Position numbers and translations under genes: made by a program | Origin: Nitrospirales bacterium | GTDB lineage: Bacteria > Nitrospirota > Nitrospiria > Nitrospirales > UBA8639 | Assembly (NCBI GenBank): GCA_021604005.1 | Contig: BQIV01000002.1 | Coordinates: forward strand, 124,001 to 188,000 | Direction: 5' to 3' | DNA: 64,000 nt | The notes under the pieces: generated by a model | The model's input: the letters and a program-made list of their open reading frames with translations, nothing else | Databases searched by the model: none | Told to the model about the DNA's origin: nothing | Shown: positions 13,234-64,000 of the stretch, piece after piece | How positions within the stretch are numbered: position 1 is the first letter of the stretch | Layout of the letters: each line of letters begins with the position of its first letter

Positions 13234-13330
13234 CAATGAAAAGTGAAGGCCCTTGACGAAATCACTCGTTTTCTTTGTATATATTCATCATGTTTCATTT
13301 TCACTTTGCATTTTGCACGATGCATTTTTT
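13234..13330. repeat. Heptanucleotide element between flhB and flhA
   Basis: A short arm with ATGAAAA GTGAAGG units, a core, then a pyrimidine arm with TTTCATT, TTCACTT, TGCATTT and TGCACGA. The right end touches the flhB stop codon. It has the same architecture as the other heptad elements in the window. Confidence 0.6.
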
Positions 13331-17044: not shown

Positions 17045-17086
17045 CTCGTTGTTCGTCGCTCGTTACTCGTTGTTTGTTGCTCGTTG
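17045..17086. repeat. Regular heptanucleotide repeat between fliN and fliO
   Basis: Six consecutive seven-base units can be read without slippage: CTCGTTG, TTCGTCG, CTCGTTA, CTCGTTG, TTTGTTG, CTCGTTG. It is the clearest proof of a seven-base period in these tracts. It begins eight bases upstream of the fliO start codon. Confidence 0.8.
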
Positions 17087-17113
17087 CTTCCTTCACGGTG
17101 TACGACTCTCGCT

Positions 17114-18586: not shown

Positions 18587-18659
18587 CGTGAAACGAAAGA
18601 CGGTAGACGTGAGATGAATTCCTTGTTCGTTTTCCCTTTCCCGTTTTCCGTCTAACGAG
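18587..18659. repeat. Compact palindromic heptanucleotide element between fliL and fliM
   Basis: The cleanest two-arm copy. The left arm reads CGTGAAA, CGAAAGA, CGGTAGA, CGTGAGA; the core contains GATGAATTCCTT; the right arm reads GTTTTCC, CTTTCCC, GTTTTCC, GTCTAAC, which is the reverse-complement type. The arms pair at about five of seven bases per heptad. Confidence 0.75.
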
Positions 18660-19529: not shown

Positions 19530-19840
19530 CGTGGCCAAGCACACCTGTAATCAAAACACCACCTGGCATATGACTCCAGCATATGTTGCACTTCAAGAGC
19601 CCACAGTCATCCAACAATCGTGTTCAAGCACACCTGTAATAAAAATCACAACAGGACTATGATTCCAATATAGGCTGTTCTTCATAAGCGCAACAGCACA
19701 CAACAACCGTGTTCACTTGAACACCTGTAAACAAAATATCACCTGGCATGTGACTCCAGCGTAATCTGCCCTTCAGGAGCCCAGAGTCATTCAGTGACCG
19801 TGTTCAAGCACTCCATTTACCAAAACCCCAGAATTATGAG
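19530..19840. repeat. Tandem repeat of 89-91-bp units upstream of fliL
   Basis: Units begin at 19530, 19619, 19708 and 19799 (the last partial), giving periods of 89, 89 and 91. Each starts near CGTGTTCAAGCACACCTGTA and contains ATGTGACTCCAGC-like and CAGAGTCAT-like blocks. Units 1 and 3 are the most alike. No reading frame is shared, so the array is non-coding. It lies 300-600 bases upstream of the fliL sigma-54 site in the 820-base gap between flgE and fliL; the rest of that gap shows nothing I recognise. Confidence 0.8.
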
Positions 19841-23570: not shown

Positions 23571-24182
23571 TTACTTTTTTGTCGATCGCTGAAAGTTTCG
23601 CAATCCGTGTGACAGCGCAGCCGCCTTTTCCGGGGTGACTCCCGCCAACACCACCGCAGCTTTTTTACTCTTGATTCCTGACAGAATTTCTAAGGCTAAT
23701 CGTTCATCCATTTTTTCTATCCTGAGTGCCGCCTCTTCTGGATCCATGGCCCCATACACTTTCACTAAATGCTCCAGGGAAGGATCGTCCTTGGGTTGTT
23801 CCTGTTTTTTTCCATTAAGTGCTGCGGCCTGGTTTTGTAACCGTTCGGCTTCTTTTGCCTGACGCTCAGCTAGTGCTTCAACGTCACGTTGCAGGCCTTC
23901 TATTCGTGCTTCTTTTTGCTGCAAACGCTGTTCCCGCTCTTCTAGATCCTTCAAACGTCGTTGCAATTGCTGAACAAGCGAGGCTTCTTCGCTGATCTCT
24001 TCACTCGACTCTATACTCTCAACACTTTGACTTTCTTTAATTATTTCCTCAGACACCTGATGTTCCTCACCCACCGAATAGGAGACTGAAACGACCGCAG
24101 TTCCTCCAAGAACGATCAAGACCATCCACCAGGGAAGAATCCCGAAACACGGCAATATTTTTCTACCAGGCGAATTTTGCAT
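23571..24182 (-). CDS. MotE-like flagellar coiled-coil membrane protein
   Basis: 203 residues from an ATG preceded by GGAG. One membrane helix lies near 14-36 (WWMVLIVLGGTAVVSVSYSV), then a long coiled coil (about 65-125, rich in Glu, Gln, Arg) and a C-terminal domain like MgtE_N: YGAMDPEEAALRIEKMDERL, then LEILSGIKSKKAAVVLAGVT. This architecture and the site between fliJ and fliK match the MotE family, described as a chaperone for the stator protein MotC in some alphaproteobacteria; the role here is inferred. Its start codon, ribosome-binding site and first codons are copied in the 90-bp tandem repeats just upstream. Confidence 0.65.
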   Translation of the reverse strand: MQNSPGRKILPCFGILPWWMVLIVLGGTAVVSVSYSVGEEHQVSEEIIKESQSVESIESSEEISEEASLVQQLQRRLKDLEEREQRLQQKEARIEGLQRDVEALAERQAKEAERLQNQAAALNGKKQEQPKDDPSLEHLVKVYGAMDPEEAALRIEKMDERLALEILSGIKSKKAAVVLAGVTPEKAAALSHGLRNFQRSTKK

Positions 24183-24460
24183 AGTTGTTACTCCTGCTAC
24201 TGCCCTCACACCCAAGGCCCAACATCAACAGGTAGCACCCCGTGCCTGCTGGTGCCTAGGCGAATTTTGCATAGTCGACTCTCCTACCACTTGCCTTACA
24301 TCTAAAGTCCAATGTCATCAGGTAACTCCCTGTGCCCGCTGGAGCCTGGGCGAATTTTGCATAGTCGTTACTCCTGCTAGCTACCCCACACCCAAGGTCC
24401 AACATCAACAGGTAGCACCCTGTGCCCGCCGGAGCCTGGGCGAATTTTGCATAGTCGATA
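24171..24460. repeat. 90-bp tandem repeats copying the motE-like translation start
   Basis: CGAATTTTGCATAG recurs at 24171, 24261, 24351 and 24441, an exact 90-base period: three full units and a partial fourth. In gene orientation each unit carries an AGGAG-like site (weaker in the outermost copy), an ATG and codons for MQNSP. The copy nearest the gene is the real start; the others open short ORFs of about 14-15 codons, such as MQNSPRLQRAQGVT then TGA. In another frame the units encode a repeated DYAKFAQAPAGTG, which I regard as accidental. Confidence 0.9.
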
Positions 24461-24468
24461 TTCCTACG

Positions 24469-30131: not shown

Positions 30132-30250
30132 ATACGTTAAAAGTAAAAAATGAAAAGTAAAAAATTAGAAATCACGATCGATCTCCTTTTGATCGTATTT
30201 CTTACTTTGCATTGTGTAATTTACATTTTTCACTTTTTATTCATTACCGT
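30132..30250. repeat. Palindromic heptanucleotide element between fliE and fliF
   Basis: Left units GTTAAAA, GTAAAAA, ATGAAAA, GTAAAAA; core TCACGATCGATCTCCTT; right units TTCTTAC, TTTGCAT, TGTGTAA, TTTACAT, TTTTCAC. The core resembles that of the element at 31061-31159 (TCACGATAGATTTCCTT). The A/T-rich unit variant differs from the CGTGAAA-type variant, but the period and layout are the same. Confidence 0.7.
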
Positions 30251-38747: not shown

Positions 38748-38848
38748 CAATTCACATTGCACAATGTAACGTGTAAAGTGCCGGATTAATAAAAAGCTTG
38801 ACCTTTTCGTTAATTTTGCATTTTAAATTTTTCACTTTGCATTTTTGG
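38748..38848. repeat. Heptanucleotide element, A/T-rich variant
   Basis: Starts with CATTGCACAATGTAACGTG and ends with AATTTTGCATTTTAAATTT and TTCACTTTGCATTTTT. The two halves are opposite in sense around a core near AAAAAGCTTGACC. It lies between the small ORF and the secreted-protein gene. Confidence 0.6.
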
Positions 38849-44578: not shown

Positions 44579-45637
44579 TCACCCACCACGTGCATGCATT
44601 TCCAAATGCGGGTCTTGTCGAAGACGTTCGATCTCGACAAATCGTCCTCGAGTATCGACGCGTTCCAGCTCTTTGCGCTCTTCCGCACCACGATTGGTTC
44701 GGGCATTCCATGTTGAAACCAGCAACGCGCGTAATTCGTCTACCGTTGCACCGTCCCGTAGCGGTTGCCGCAGGTCGATACCTGTCTTGGCATACAAACA
44801 CAGATACCAGAGACCATCGGCAGTAAGACGGCTACGATCACAGGTAGAGCAAAATGGGAGTGTCGTGGAAGCGATAATGCCAAACGTCGTGCCGTCGAGC
44901 AGCCGGAACCTCTTAGCCGGAGCCCAGGAATCTTCAATGATTGGCTCAATGAGCCCGTAATGACGACTGAGAGTCTGTAAAATTTCCGCGCAGGAAAACA
45001 CCTTATCGACTGACCAATCGGTTGCGCCACCGACATCCATATATTCAATGAATCGCACTTCCCCACCGACCGTTTTCCCGAATTCAATCAGATCGATCAA
45101 TTCGTCGTCATTGATCCCTTTCATCGCCACCGTATCAAGTTTTAAATCGTGAAACCCAATGGCGTTCACGATGTCGATACCCTCAAGGACCTGCACAAAC
45201 GTGTTGCGCTTCGTCAGCGCTTTAAACCGGTCGGCTCGTAATGTATCAAGACTCACGGTGACTCGATGGAGCCCGGCATCATACAGAGATTGAGCTTGCT
45301 CTTTGAGAAGAATGCCATTTGTGGTGAGCGCAATGTCCTTGATCTTAGAATTCTCGCGAAGCAAGGCAATCAGGGACGGGAGATCTTTCCGCAATAACGG
45401 TTCCCCCCCCGTGATACGCACTTTGTCAACACCTACAGTCGTGAAGACATTCGTCAGACGAACAATTTCTTCAAATGTCAGCAACGTTTCACGAGGCAGC
45501 CAGACATATTCTTCTTCCGGCATGCAATACTGACAACGAAGATTACAGCGATCCGTAACGGAAACACGCAATGCCCGCAGCGGTCGCCCCATCGTATCAA
45601 CAACTGTCGGCACCGATTCTTTCACTTCCGTCTTCAT
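44579..45637 (-). CDS. moaA: GTP 3',8-cyclase MoaA (molybdopterin synthesis)
   Basis: 352 residues of the radical SAM family. The first cluster motif is SVTDRCNLRCQYCMPEE (CxxxCxxC); the second is FCSTCDRSRLTADGLWYLCL. TGGEPLLRKDLPSL is the SAM-binding GGE region. It converts GTP to the first molybdopterin intermediate. The usual C-terminal Gly-Gly activation tail is present in form: the protein ends HLEMHARGG. The first eight or so codons run into a heptad-like sequence, so the start (ATG 45637) is less sure. Confidence 0.95.
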   Translation of the reverse strand: MKTEVKESVPTVVDTMGRPLRALRVSVTDRCNLRCQYCMPEEEYVWLPRETLLTFEEIVRLTNVFTTVGVDKVRITGGEPLLRKDLPSLIALLRENSKIKDIALTTNGILLKEQAQSLYDAGLHRVTVSLDTLRADRFKALTKRNTFVQVLEGIDIVNAIGFHDLKLDTVAMKGINDDELIDLIEFGKTVGGEVRFIEYMDVGGATDWSVDKVFSCAEILQTLSRHYGLIEPIIEDSWAPAKRFRLLDGTTFGIIASTTLPFCSTCDRSRLTADGLWYLCLYAKTGIDLRQPLRDGATVDELRALLVSTWNARTNRGAEERKELERVDTRGRFVEIERLRQDPHLEMHARGG

Positions 45638-45644
45638 CTTCAAT

Positions 45645-45711
45645 ATCTTTTCACTTCTTAACTTTTCACGCTTCACTTCTCACGTCTAACGTTTCACCTT
45701 TCACGTTCTGT
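45645..45711. repeat. One-armed heptanucleotide tract between moaA and moaE
   Basis: A run of ACTTTTC, ACGCTTC, ACTTCTC, ACGTCTA, ACGTTTC, ACCTTTC, ACGTTCT, all seven bases long with AC at the start. The opposite arm is not evident. It fills the whole gap up to the moaE stop. Confidence 0.78.
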
Positions 45712-46155
45712 TCAGGGATGCTCTTCCACCCACACGTCGCCTTCCGGCGTCTCTTCCAATTTCCAAATGGGGGTAATTTTTTTCAATTCGTCGATACACC
45801 ATTCGCATGCCCTAAACGCATCGGCACGGTGCTCGGCTCCGACCACAATCAACACGACATTCTCACCAATCTCAATGGCTCCGTACCGATGCAACACCAA
45901 GACTTCTATAACATCAAAGTCCTGTAAGGCACGTTCACGAATTTCGCGTAGTTTTTTTTGAGCCATCCCTTCGTAATGTTCAAACGTGAGCAACCGCACG
46001 TCACGTCCTTTAGAGCGATCTCGCACGGTGCCCAGAAACGTCGCAATGCCACCAATGCGAGTCGAACGCGCGCGTACCCGATTGATTTCTTCATCAACCG
46101 AAAAATCTTCAGCCTGCACTCGAACCAGCATGGTCTCTTCTATTTCAACAGCCAT
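45712..46155 (-). CDS. moaE: Molybdopterin synthase catalytic subunit MoaE
   Basis: 147 residues from the ATG at 46155 with GGAGG about ten bases upstream. GGIATFLGTVRDRSKGRDVR, LTFEHYEGMAQKKLREIRER and VLHRYGAIEIGENVVLIVVG are MoaE blocks, including catalytic-region residues. It uses the MoaD thiocarboxylate to make molybdopterin. The genes run moaC-moaD-moaE-moaA in this order. Confidence 0.95.
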   Translation of the reverse strand: MAVEIEETMLVRVQAEDFSVDEEINRVRARSTRIGGIATFLGTVRDRSKGRDVRLLTFEHYEGMAQKKLREIRERALQDFDVIEVLVLHRYGAIEIGENVVLIVVGAEHRADAFRACEWCIDELKKITPIWKLEETPEGDVWVEEHP

Positions 46156-46175
46156 CGTGAAAATCCCTCCAGAGG

Positions 46176-46280
46176 GCAATGAAAGATTTACATTGCAAAG
46201 TACAAAATGCGAGAGTTGCTTTGTAGAATTATTGCTCTATCTTGACACTTTTGCATTTTTCATTTTGCCTTTTGAATTCG
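46176..46280. repeat. Heptanucleotide element running into the moaD 3' end
   Basis: Left side has CAATGAAAGATTTACATTGC and GTACAAAATGC; right side has CTTTTGCATTTTTCATTTTG. The arms are opposite in sense, as in the element at 38748-38848. The right arm encodes most of the 17-residue tail that follows the Gly-Gly of MoaD. Confidence 0.65.
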
Positions 46281-46539
46281 CTTCTAAGGAGCCGCCAGCA
46301 AATGGAGGCAAGAGCGCCACTTCATCAGCCGTAGAAATTACCGTATCGGGGTGAGAGATTTCTTGATTCACCGATATCAGAACTTTTTTCTTGAGTACCA
46401 ACTCCCCAATCTCTGGATACTGCGCTCGCAAAACCTCAACAAGGTCTTCAACTTTCTGGCCGTCGACAAATTCAAGCGACAACTCTTTCTGTTGCTGCGC
46501 TAAGGTTTTGACCATCCCGAATAATTTAATGGAAAGCAT
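46237..46539 (-). CDS. moaD: Molybdopterin synthase sulfur carrier MoaD, with an abnormal C-terminal tail
   Basis: 100 residues with a ubiquitin-like fold (MLSIKLFGMVKTLAQQQKEL ... VALLPPFAGG). In known MoaD the chain ends exactly at Gly-Gly so that the terminal Gly can be adenylated and thiocarboxylated. Here GG is at 46291-46296 and is followed by 17 more codons (SLEANSKGKMKNAKVSR) before TAG at 46237. The tail is encoded by a heptad element that seems to have removed the original stop. MoaD must therefore be trimmed, replaced by another copy, or be inactive. An upstream TTG start is possible. Confidence 0.9.
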   Translation of the reverse strand: MLSIKLFGMVKTLAQQQKELSLEFVDGQKVEDLVEVLRAQYPEIGELVLKKKVLISVNQEISHPDTVISTADEVALLPPFAGGSLEANSKGKMKNAKVSR

Positions 46540-46566: not shown

Positions 46567-47064
46567 CTACGTACGAGACCGTGTATACGTCCCGGATTTC
46601 CCACCCGATTTTGAAAGCAGGCAGATCTCGCCAAAACTCATTCCCTTATCAATAGCTTTACACATATCATAGATCGTCAACGCAGCGACAGACACCGCCG
46701 TCATGGCTTCCATTTCCACGCCAGTTCCGCCAGTCGTTTTAACCGTCGCAAAAATTGTAATCGAACAGCGCCCACCCACATCAGACTGAGGCTCTTCCTT
46801 AAAGTCGATATCCACATTCGTGAGCAATAACGGATGACACATGGGAATTACATCCGGCGTTCGCTTCGCAGCCATTACTCCAGCCACTTGCGCGACAGCC
46901 AACACATCACCCTTGGCAATCTGCCCTTCTTGAATTTTCTTCAGCGTTTCCGGCAAGACAAACACTTTCCCTTGAGCCGTGGCAATACGTTCCGTCAACG
47001 CCTTTTGCGTTACGTCAACCATCCGCGCTCGCCCCGCCTCATTAAAGTGCGTCAACTCAGCCAT
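46567..47064 (-). CDS. moaC: Cyclic pyranopterin monophosphate synthase MoaC
   Basis: 165 residues. [20 protein letters not shown] and [20 protein letters not shown] and [20 protein letters not shown] are MoaC signatures and the length is typical. It acts after MoaA. It opens the moaC-moaD-moaE-moaA group. Confidence 0.96.
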
Positions 47065-47953: not shown

Positions 47954-48160
47954 ATGTCTGAAATTATATTTGTAGTGGAAGAAGCGCCCGAAGGGAGCTA
48001 TACCGCCAAGGCTTTATGAGAATCGATTTTCACGGAAGCTGATAGTTTTGCAGAACTCCACGACAAAGTCCGTGACGCTGTTAAGAGTCATTTCGAAGAG
48101 AATAACGTTCCTAAACTAATAAGACTTCACCACGTCAAAGAAGAAGTCATTGCGGTATGA
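47954..48160 (+). pseudogene. HicB-like antitoxin, broken by a TGA
   Basis: The frame reads MSEIIFVVEEAPEGSYTAKA-L, TGA at 48017-48019, then ESIFTEADSFAELHDKVRDA and VKSHFEENNVPKLIRLHHVK to EEVIAV. This is a complete HicB-type partner protein in which the expected Gly codon GGA after AKAL has become TGA. Apart from that the frame is intact over 68 positions. It overlaps the HicA remnant as ATGA. I saw no mobile element nearby; simple decay is the likely cause. Confidence 0.8.
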
Positions 48161-48314
48161 GGTTGCCACGTAATCTTTCCAGTTCTGACCTAATACAAAG
48201 CCTCGAAAACCTAGGATATCGAAGCACTCGACAGACAGGTAGTCACATCCGGTTAACCACCAGCCAACAATGAGCCGTGAAGCACTCGCCCAAAAACTTT
48301 TTGAAAACAAGTGA
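48157..48314 (+). pseudogene. HicA-like toxin remnant with internal deletion
   Basis: The N-terminal MRLPRNLSSSDLIQSLENLG, then YRSTRQTGSHIRLTT, is the HicA fold with its catalytic-type His in GSHIRL. The frame then stops at 48271-48273. In a frame one base over, MSREALAQKLFENK is the normal HicA C-terminus. About 30 residues between the two parts are missing, so a deletion plus frameshift has destroyed the toxin. Confidence 0.8.
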
Positions 48315-61199: not shown

Positions 61200-64000
61200 G
61201 TGTTCCCCACATGCGTGGGGATGAACCGTCGGAGCGGTTGAAGTCATGCCGCGAAAAATCGTGTTCCCCACATGCGTGGGGATGAACCGAGATTGTTCGA
61301 AGGGATTTGAAATTCCCACACGTGTTCCCCACATGCGTGGGGATGAACCGCTGTAATGTTATGGATAACATCTAAGGCTGTAGTGTTCCCCACATGCGTG
61401 GGGATGAACCGGTTACTGCATAGGGGTGGTGTCCTTCATCGAACGTGTTCCCCACATGCGTGGGGATGAACCGGCTCATACTCAAAAGCCACACCCTTCT
61501 TGATAGTGTTCCCCACATGCGTGGGGATGAACCGATTATTTCTAGGTGTTAGTATGTGTATAGAGAGTGTTCCCCACATGCGTGGGGATGAACCGAAGAA
61601 ACGGGCTAATATTGTAGAGGTAGAACAGTGTTCCCCACATGCGTGGGGATGAACCGACTAGAGGTGTCGTGTCAATACCAAACTGGTTCGTGTGTTCCCC
61701 ACATGCGTGGGGATGAACCGCTTCATGGCGTAGTGCTGAGACTCATCAAATCGTGTTCCCCACATGCGTGGGGATGAACCGAATTCGGTGTATTTCCGTG
61801 AACTCGCATTCGGGTGTTCCCCACATGCGTGGGGATGAACCGTCAGGCGCGTTCATGATTCGGCTCCTCCTATCGTGTTCCCCACATGCGTGGGGATGAA
61901 CCGGATATCGAGAAATCCCCATTGCCCAATCACTAGTGTTCCCCACATGCGTGGGGATGAACCGCTTTTTGAGGCAACTCCGATAATGTTCGACCAGTGT
62001 TCCCCAAATGCGTGGGGATGAACCGCTCAATAATCATGGCTAATTGAAACGTACCGCGTGTTCCCCACATGCGTGGGGATGAACCGGCGCTTAACCATCA
62101 TAATGTTATTCAGATACTGTGTTCCCCACATGCGTGGGGATGAACCGGAATTCTTGCGAGGCTTTTGCTTCATGAGACAGTGTTCCCCACATGCGTGGGG
62201 ATGAACCGTTTACCGATACCACTGGTCACCCCTTTGAAGAGTGTTCCCCACATGCGTGGGGATGAACCGTTTATTTACTTGTAACTGTGCCTTCTGTTCA
62301 TGTGTTCCCCACATGCGTGGGGATGAACCGTTCCTAATGTCTATAGAACTGGGGGTTGTCGAGTGTTCCCCACATGCGTGGGGATGAACCGTCTTTGTTA
62401 GACAATGCACCACTACCTGCACTGTGTTCCCCACATGCGTGGGGATGAACCGACTATAGTGGTAGTGTCTACACCAAACTGGTTGTGTTCCCCACATGCG
62501 TGGGGATGAACCGCTATTCAAAACGTTTCCTGGTGGATTTTTGCGGTGTTCCCCACATGCGTGGGGATGAACCGCTTCCTAGAAATGAAAAAAAAATTCA
62601 ACTAGCGTGTTCCCCACATGCGTGGGGATGAACCGGTGAAGATTCATCATGGCTGGTGATTGATATCGTGTTCCCCACATGCGTGGGGATGAACCGTGGC
62701 CGAGGAGCAGTTTGGCGAATGGTTTGAGGTGTTCCCCACATGCGTGGGGATGAACCGGCGAACTAACCCGTAGCAATCGCACCCCAACCGTGTTCCCCAC
62801 ATGCGTGGGGATGAACCGCATCATATGACCGAACTCTTCGAATCTGCACAGTGTTCCCCACATGCGTGGGGATGAACCGTTCTTCGTCCTTCTTAAATGG
62901 GGCATAGGGATGTGTTCCCCACATGCGTGGGGATGAACCGCAGACCAGCGAATGCGCCTTGATCGGTCATAGGTGTTCCCCACATGCGTGGGGATGAACC
63001 GAGGCGGCGATCAATAATATTACGGCACGACTCGTGTTCCCCACATGCGTGGGGATGAACCGAAAACTATCATGTTTGGCGGCGGGAATGGACCGTGTTC
63101 CCCACATGCGTGGGGATGAACCGCTAGTGCCATGGTTGTTAATTCACCGGCGTAAGTGTTCCCCACATGCGTGGGGATGAACCCCTATTCTTGCTAGCAA
63201 CATCTTTAGCTGAGACGTGTTCCCCACATGCGTGGGGATGAACCGTCATGTTGCCTGGACGGAAGATGGTGTAAATTTGTGTTCCCCACATGCGTGGGGA
63301 TGAACCGCAAACGAAAGGACTGGACGCGAACGTTTCGCAGTGTTCCCCACATGCGTGGGGATGAACCGGTGATTGAGGCGAAAGAGCAGCGGTTGGAGAG
63401 GTGTTCCCCACATGCGTGGGGATGAACCGCCAGAGAGGCACTTCATGAGACCTGCATTGGGGTGTTCCCCACATGCGTGGGGATGAACCGGTTTTTGTAG
63501 TTGGGGAGAGTGTGGAGTGTCCGTGTTCCCCACATGCGTGGGGATGAACCGTCTGCCTTCAGATCGATGACCCCATTTCCGACGTGTTCCCCACATGCGT
63601 GGGGATGAACCAAGTTTACACTGCTAGACCCAACCAGCATCCCCGTGTTCCCCACATGCGTGGGGATGAACCGACTGGTTTCAAGCGCCCTCGTCTTGTC
63701 AGGCTGTGTTCCCCACATGCGTGGGGATGAACCGGGCGTGCTTGTACAGCCACACCGTGTCATGTGGTGTTCCCCACATGCGTGGGGATGAACCGAATTT
63801 ACATCTTCTACTGTTGCCTCGTATTGCGTGTTCCCCACATGCGTGGGGATGAACCGCAAGTAAAAGTTGTGATGCCGCGCCACACGATGTGTTCCCCACA
63901 TGCGTGGGGATGAACCGGGTTACCCGTGTTGTCTGCCTTCCCATACAGCGTGTTCCCCACATGCGTGGGGATGAACCGCATAGACTTGCTCTTGTGTCAG
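61200..64000 (+). CRISPR. Type I-E CRISPR array, at least 46 repeats, runs off the window
   Basis: The 29-base repeat starts GTGTTCCCCACATGCG and ends GGGGATGAACCG, with an imperfect inverted repeat CCCCACATGCGTGGGG, close to the E. coli I-E repeat. Forty-six repeats start every 61 bases from 61200 to 63950; 45 full spacers are visible plus the first 22 bases of another. Most spacers are 32 bases; those after repeats 4 and 34 are 33, and the one after repeat 8 is 35. Three repeats vary: number 14 (ACATG to AAATG), 33 (last base C) and 40 (last base A). Later variants fit a leader at the left end. Open frames here (GSSPRMWGT / [10 protein letters not shown]) are only translated repeats. Confidence 0.99.

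Follow-up and report, generated by a model that had tools for sequence, protein, structure and literature searches.

Short residues behind the Gly-Gly end of a sulfur carrier are known from HcyS of Wolinella and QbsE of Pseudomonas. These carriers bear one or two residues past Gly-Gly, removed by a JAMM peptidase (HcyS/HcyD and QbsE/QbsD systems), and serve methionine or siderophore synthesis. Fused MoaD-MoaE proteins and cleavage by JAMM are likewise already known. MoaX, a Mycobacterium tuberculosis protein in which MoaD and MoaE are fused, is cleaved between Gly82 and Ser83 and requires this cleavage for activity (Narrandes et al. 2015, PMC4326299). In Deinococcus radiodurans the JAMM peptidase DR0402 cleaves the MoaD-MoaE protein DR2607, and the mutant accumulates cPMP (Yang et al. 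2018, as cited in PMC8832034). Fusions of ThiS with ThiG and of MoaD with MoaE were noted by Iyer, Burroughs and Aravind 2006, who proposed that JAB peptidases could free the carrier; they found operons for MoCo or thiamine to be without JAB genes, and their paper is not known to describe short caps or linker repeats (PMC1779556). MoaD-MoaE fusions are present in 775 of 33,957 bacterial genomes (PMC11237513).

The window, the whole stretch of 64,000 nucleotides that was analysed, carries moaC (46567..47064; Pfam MoaC 4e-56), moaD (46237..46539), moaE, the large subunit of molybdopterin synthase (45712..46155; Pfam MoaE 5e-37, GGAGGG upstream of the ATG), and moaA (44579..45676; Radical_SAM and Mob_synth_C, start codon uncertain). 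The four genes stand together as an operon, all on the minus strand. The gene moaD encodes the small subunit of molybdopterin synthase, 100 amino acids with its tail, and extends from the ATG at 46539 to the stop TAG at 46239-46237. The sequence-only reading had placed it at 46176-46539; the gene lies inside that span, which also takes in part of the non-coding spacer. The protein scores 56.3 bits against Pfam ThiS (4.8e-15; cut-off 22.5 bits), in keeping with a beta-grasp ThiS/MoaD domain. The NCBIfam equivalog TIGR01682 is still its top match (2e-12) at 47.7 bits, below the cut-off of 66.15, and by this score MoaD is a divergent member of the family. In an AlphaFold2 model the core, which is that of an ordinary ThiS/MoaD protein, has pLDDT >90 over most of its length. 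Values of dN/dS against three relatives are 0.070-0.076, rough because dS is near saturation, and point to strong purifying selection.

As in MoaX, an internal Gly-Gly is followed by Ser. The fused layout of MoaX is also that of most Nitrospirales; at this locus, however, moaD and moaE are separate genes, not one chain as in MoaX and DR2607, and MoaD keeps only a short, partly repeat-encoded tail. The translation reads ...LLPPFAGG and continues with SLEANSKGKMKNAKVSR (46240..46290, minus strand), 17 residues, before the TAG. This confirms that the Gly-Gly is covered by a tail and is not C-terminal. The codons of Gly82-Gly83 are at 46291..46296 on the minus strand; the pair is invariant in 152 loci of the order Nitrospirales. 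Ser at position +1 is a small residue, as in molybdopterin (MPT) synthases that depend on cleavage. The tail is predicted to be disordered (residues 82-96 with pLDDT <50 in the AlphaFold2 model). A stop read-through error or an assembly artefact was ruled out, capped Gly-Gly ends having been found independently in genus mates.

The moaD-moaE junction (46156..46290, minus strand) measures 135 nt. In the two closest relatives, whose MoaD proteins are 86% and 82% identical, it spans 36-37 nt. The excess of 98-99 nt implies inserted material. Two arms of a heptad repeat, each of 31 nt, form an imperfect inverted repeat with 71% complementarity. The first (46247..46277, minus strand) is translated within the tail and has 71% identity at lag 7; the second, inverted arm (46186..46216, minus strand) is untranslated and pairs imperfectly with the first. 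The stop codon TAG (46237..46239, minus strand) lies between them. Though real, the repeat is modest: across the 64 kb window, nine clusters reach the lag-7 score of the moaD arm. Other heptad-period stretches of the window are at 188-223, 672-711, 13287-13318, 17046-17090, 18619-18653, 30132-30174, 38813-38845 and 45661-45709, the last between moaE and moaA. Parts of the element have 18 weak matches elsewhere in the genome (E 0.01-0.9), several with the same two-armed hairpin layout. These matches suggest a loose dispersed family, in which some of the weakest may be chance. Folding of the junction RNA is no better than that of shuffled sequences (z +1.5), and an RNA structure acting as regulatory element was ruled out on this ground.

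Encoding of the tail by the heptad element, as first proposed, holds for only about 10 of the 17 residues; the arm contributes neither the initial SLEA nor the final two residues. In the closest relatives moaD stops just past Gly-Gly and Ser, or Ser-Glu (TCC TAG and TCC GAG TAG). The window's gene continues past Gly-Gly with TCC TTA GAA GCG, where TCC precedes TTAGAAGCG, and the repeat follows. The old stop may have been lost either by a one-base change or by the insertion itself. The proposal that the repeat took the place of the stop codon is supported as far as an involvement of the repeat goes. The heptad element lengthened a MoaD cap that was already present.

Covered Gly-Gly ends are the rule in related genomes. 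The MoaD proteins of four genus mates end GGS, GGSE, GGA and GGS, and none of the 43 loci examined in the family stops at Gly-Gly. Among 152 non-redundant loci of the order, a single open frame covers both MoaD and MoaE in 78; the other 74 are split, and only two of these stop at a bare Gly-Gly. These two loci are near-identical sisters nested among fusions, with GG-TAG-AT-ATG in place of a GG-xxx-xxx-ATG linker. A search of named genomes gave residues past Gly-Gly in 80/80 loci (Nitrospira moscoviensis fused, Ca. N. defluvii split with SEGC); the 80 loci partly overlap the other genomes surveyed, and duplicates are removed from the count of 152. The comparison with close relatives suggested in the sequence-only reading thus found residues past Gly-Gly in all of them, but as short caps without the heptad repeat. 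Given these caps and the fused state of most of the order, a covered end peculiar to this gene or caused by the repeat is not supported. A contig titled uncultured Nitrosospira (CAADGJ010000078.1) bears a Nitrospira-type moaD-moaE and is probably a mislabelled Nitrospira bin.

Twenty-eight fused linkers contain no Met ahead of MoaE, so the fused chain is the simplest product. Ser or Ala occupies position +1 after Gly-Gly in 119 of 150 loci (entropy 1.95 bits), and later positions vary freely (3.2-3.7 bits). The modelled MoaD-MoaE fusion of N. moscoviensis is likewise weakest in the surroundings of Gly-Gly, with residues 80-87 below 50. On a MoaD+MoaE tree, of modest support owing to a short alignment, the fused and split states need 15 changes against about 58 with shuffled labels; the parsimony root is fused, and the state of the order's ancestor is ambiguous. 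Single substitutions are enough to switch between the states, as in a pair reading AATCGTTAG (split) and AACCGTGAG (fused). Outside the order, some class-level families have bare Gly-Gly and others are fused. A presumed precursor MoaD, either fused to MoaE or split and briefly capped, is the rule in Nitrospirales. The predominance of such forms in the order, and the repeated uptake of repeats by the linker behind Gly-Gly, are new as far as seen; no paper on Nitrospira MoaD ends was found in a search of largely open-access literature.

A different element occupies the same site in other members of the order. Many split junctions of family f3 contain a dispersed palindrome, AGGATG..TGAA ... CATCCT. 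Its opening bases encode the tails SEGC, SDGC, SAGC, ASAGC and APAGC, or the element is read through for 55 residues. In Nitrospira it is about 100-175 bp long (AGGATGyTGAA...TTGAnCATCCT) and was several times, in several lineages, inserted directly behind the Gly-Gly codons of moaD (L149, L265 and other f3 junctions). Its copies number at least tens per genome, among 40 candidates scored in each. No copy was found in the window's genome, and on this ground the heptad repeat and the palindrome were ruled out as one element. Presence of the palindrome on the tree needs 11 changes, gains and losses together, of which 7 are forced by well-supported branches. Two unrelated repeat families thus occupy the same site, and the linker behind Gly-Gly of split, capped MoaD tolerates repeats.

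A covered Gly-Gly in a constrained moaD implies that the tail is removed. It is probable that MoaD is a functional protein made as a precursor and cut after Gly-Gly, most likely by the single JAMM peptidase of the genome, and that the repeat entered a disposable linker. The peptidase would cut between Gly83 and Ser84 and so leave a free Gly-Gly end that can be adenylated and thiocarboxylated. The linker would be free to lose or gain stop codons and to accept repeats, because everything past Gly-Gly is either discarded or only joins MoaE. In this species the dispersed heptad inverted repeat would have entered the junction, the old stop past GGS would have been lost, and the moaD frame would have come to terminate within the heptad element. 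Both the cleavage of MoaD and JAMM as its agent are inferred here. Among the three proposals first made for the tail (trimming by a protease, service by another MoaD copy, or impaired molybdopterin synthesis), trimming is the best of the three.

The expected JAMM-type protease gene is present: a single one scores above cut-off in the genome, at C8:87665-88114, outside the window. The HxH, S and D catalytic residues are in place, as in cleavage-dependent MPT synthase systems, and the motif HSHx7SxxD is intact in 31/31 sequences examined. JAMM was found in 26/26 genomes of the order with <=10 contigs and in 150 of 161 with completeness >=90%; the 11 draft genomes in which it was not found are all fragmented (>=60 contigs). 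This distribution is consistent with cleavage by JAMM, and is not proof of it. JAMM was also found in 352 of 378 genomes of the phylum, including those where MoaD ends at bare Gly-Gly; being near universal there, its presence does not discriminate, and a comparison between JAMM and cap state across the phylum was set aside as uninformative. A single-contig genome with capped MoaD and without JAMM (G019) was rejected as counter-example, being 78% complete with runs of N in the JAMM neighbourhood. In Deinococcus a Prok-JAB/JAMM peptidase likewise frees the Gly-Gly end of MoaD, as cited in PMC8832034; in the window the presumed substrate is a capped MoaD and not a fusion, and the Nitrospirales JAMM is the presumed peptidase.

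A less probable course, though one with some weight, is that a different peptidase, or general trimming by carboxypeptidases, removes the tail and that JAMM acts only on the cysteine/methionine carrier of its own operon. The JAMM gene is not part of the moa operon, and HcyS may be all that it serves. The cluster in which it lies has no moa genes and runs thiS-like, cysteine synthase, ThiF-like, threonine-synthase-like, HcyS-like, NIL-like, ThiF-like, JAMM, some names being assigned from sequence reading. This operon is similar to HcyS/HcyD, and its HcyS-like protein has exactly one residue past Gly-Gly in 16/16 loci; the MoaD tail is longer than those of HcyS and QbsE, and highly variable. For the MoaX cut in Mycobacterium, PMC4326299 names no protease. 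However, it is a JAMM that performs the MoaD-MoaE cut in Deinococcus, as cited in PMC8832034, and a fused MoaD-MoaE without a start codon in the linker requires an endopeptidase, not a carboxypeptidase.

Supply of molybdopterin synthase by a different MoaD-like protein with a free Gly-Gly is very improbable. Seven genes of the ThiS family score above cut-off in the genome, and one weaker relative (C35:21087-21269, 14 bits, under the family cut-off) has a bare AGG end. But this small protein is distant from MoaD and encoded beside a BNR/sialidase-like gene; the remaining carriers are of thiamine, HcyS-like, CysM-linked and TtuB-like types, nearly all also with residues past Gly-Gly; and only the window's MoaD sits in a moa operon and is under purifying selection. 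No second true MoaD with bare Gly-Gly was found in the genome. Damage of moaD by the repeat, with an inactive tailed protein and Moco synthesis impaired or absent, would agree with the essential free C-terminal glycine of well-studied MoaD (reviewed in PMC4326299), but is hardly credible against a dN/dS of about 0.07, intact moaA, moaC and moaE, two formate-dehydrogenase-like Moco-dependent oxidoreductases encoded in the same genome, and a capped Gly-Gly in every genus relative. Nitrite oxidoreductase, the molybdoenzyme named in the sequence-only reading, gave no match at 1e-5, which in a 92-contig assembly does not prove absence.

Tails are not confined to MoaD. ThiS of this genome (contig C3, 67048-67308) has 21 residues past GGG, overlapping the thiG start in another frame. 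In the family, ThiS has residues past GGG in 27/30 cases, and the tails of relatives are 0-24 residues long. Two TtuB-like proteins end GGSERRP and GGSERTS. The tails on ThiS and TtuB-like proteins suggest a common maturation. Extended further, and put forward only tentatively, one JAMM might be the obligatory maturase of all Nitrospirales sulfur carriers (MoaD, ThiS, HcyS-like and TtuB-like), each synthesised as a capped or fused precursor; the stretch past Gly-Gly would thereby be freed from selection, so that repeats landed there time and again and it became a hot spot for genes to fuse and split. If JAMM removes the tail, all Moco of nitrite-oxidising and comammox Nitrospira would depend on one peptidase. 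The case also illustrates how, by freeing a protein end, a protease can relax the selection that keeps stop codons in place; gene fusion, splitting and repeat uptake then become harmless. Annotators should not take a MoaD for broken because residues follow its Gly-Gly.

Further repeats and a gene remnant were recorded in the window. Tandem arrays with a unit of about 89-90 bp lie at 19536-19811 and 24168-24465, each holding about 3 copies. A HicB/HicA-like toxin-antitoxin remnant is at 47954-48289; an in-frame TGA breaks the HicB-like frame, and the next small frame is short. CRISPR arrays at 61692-63978 have the 29-nt repeat GTGTTCCCCACATGCGTGGGGATGAACCG with a period of 61 bp, a type I-E-like repeat.
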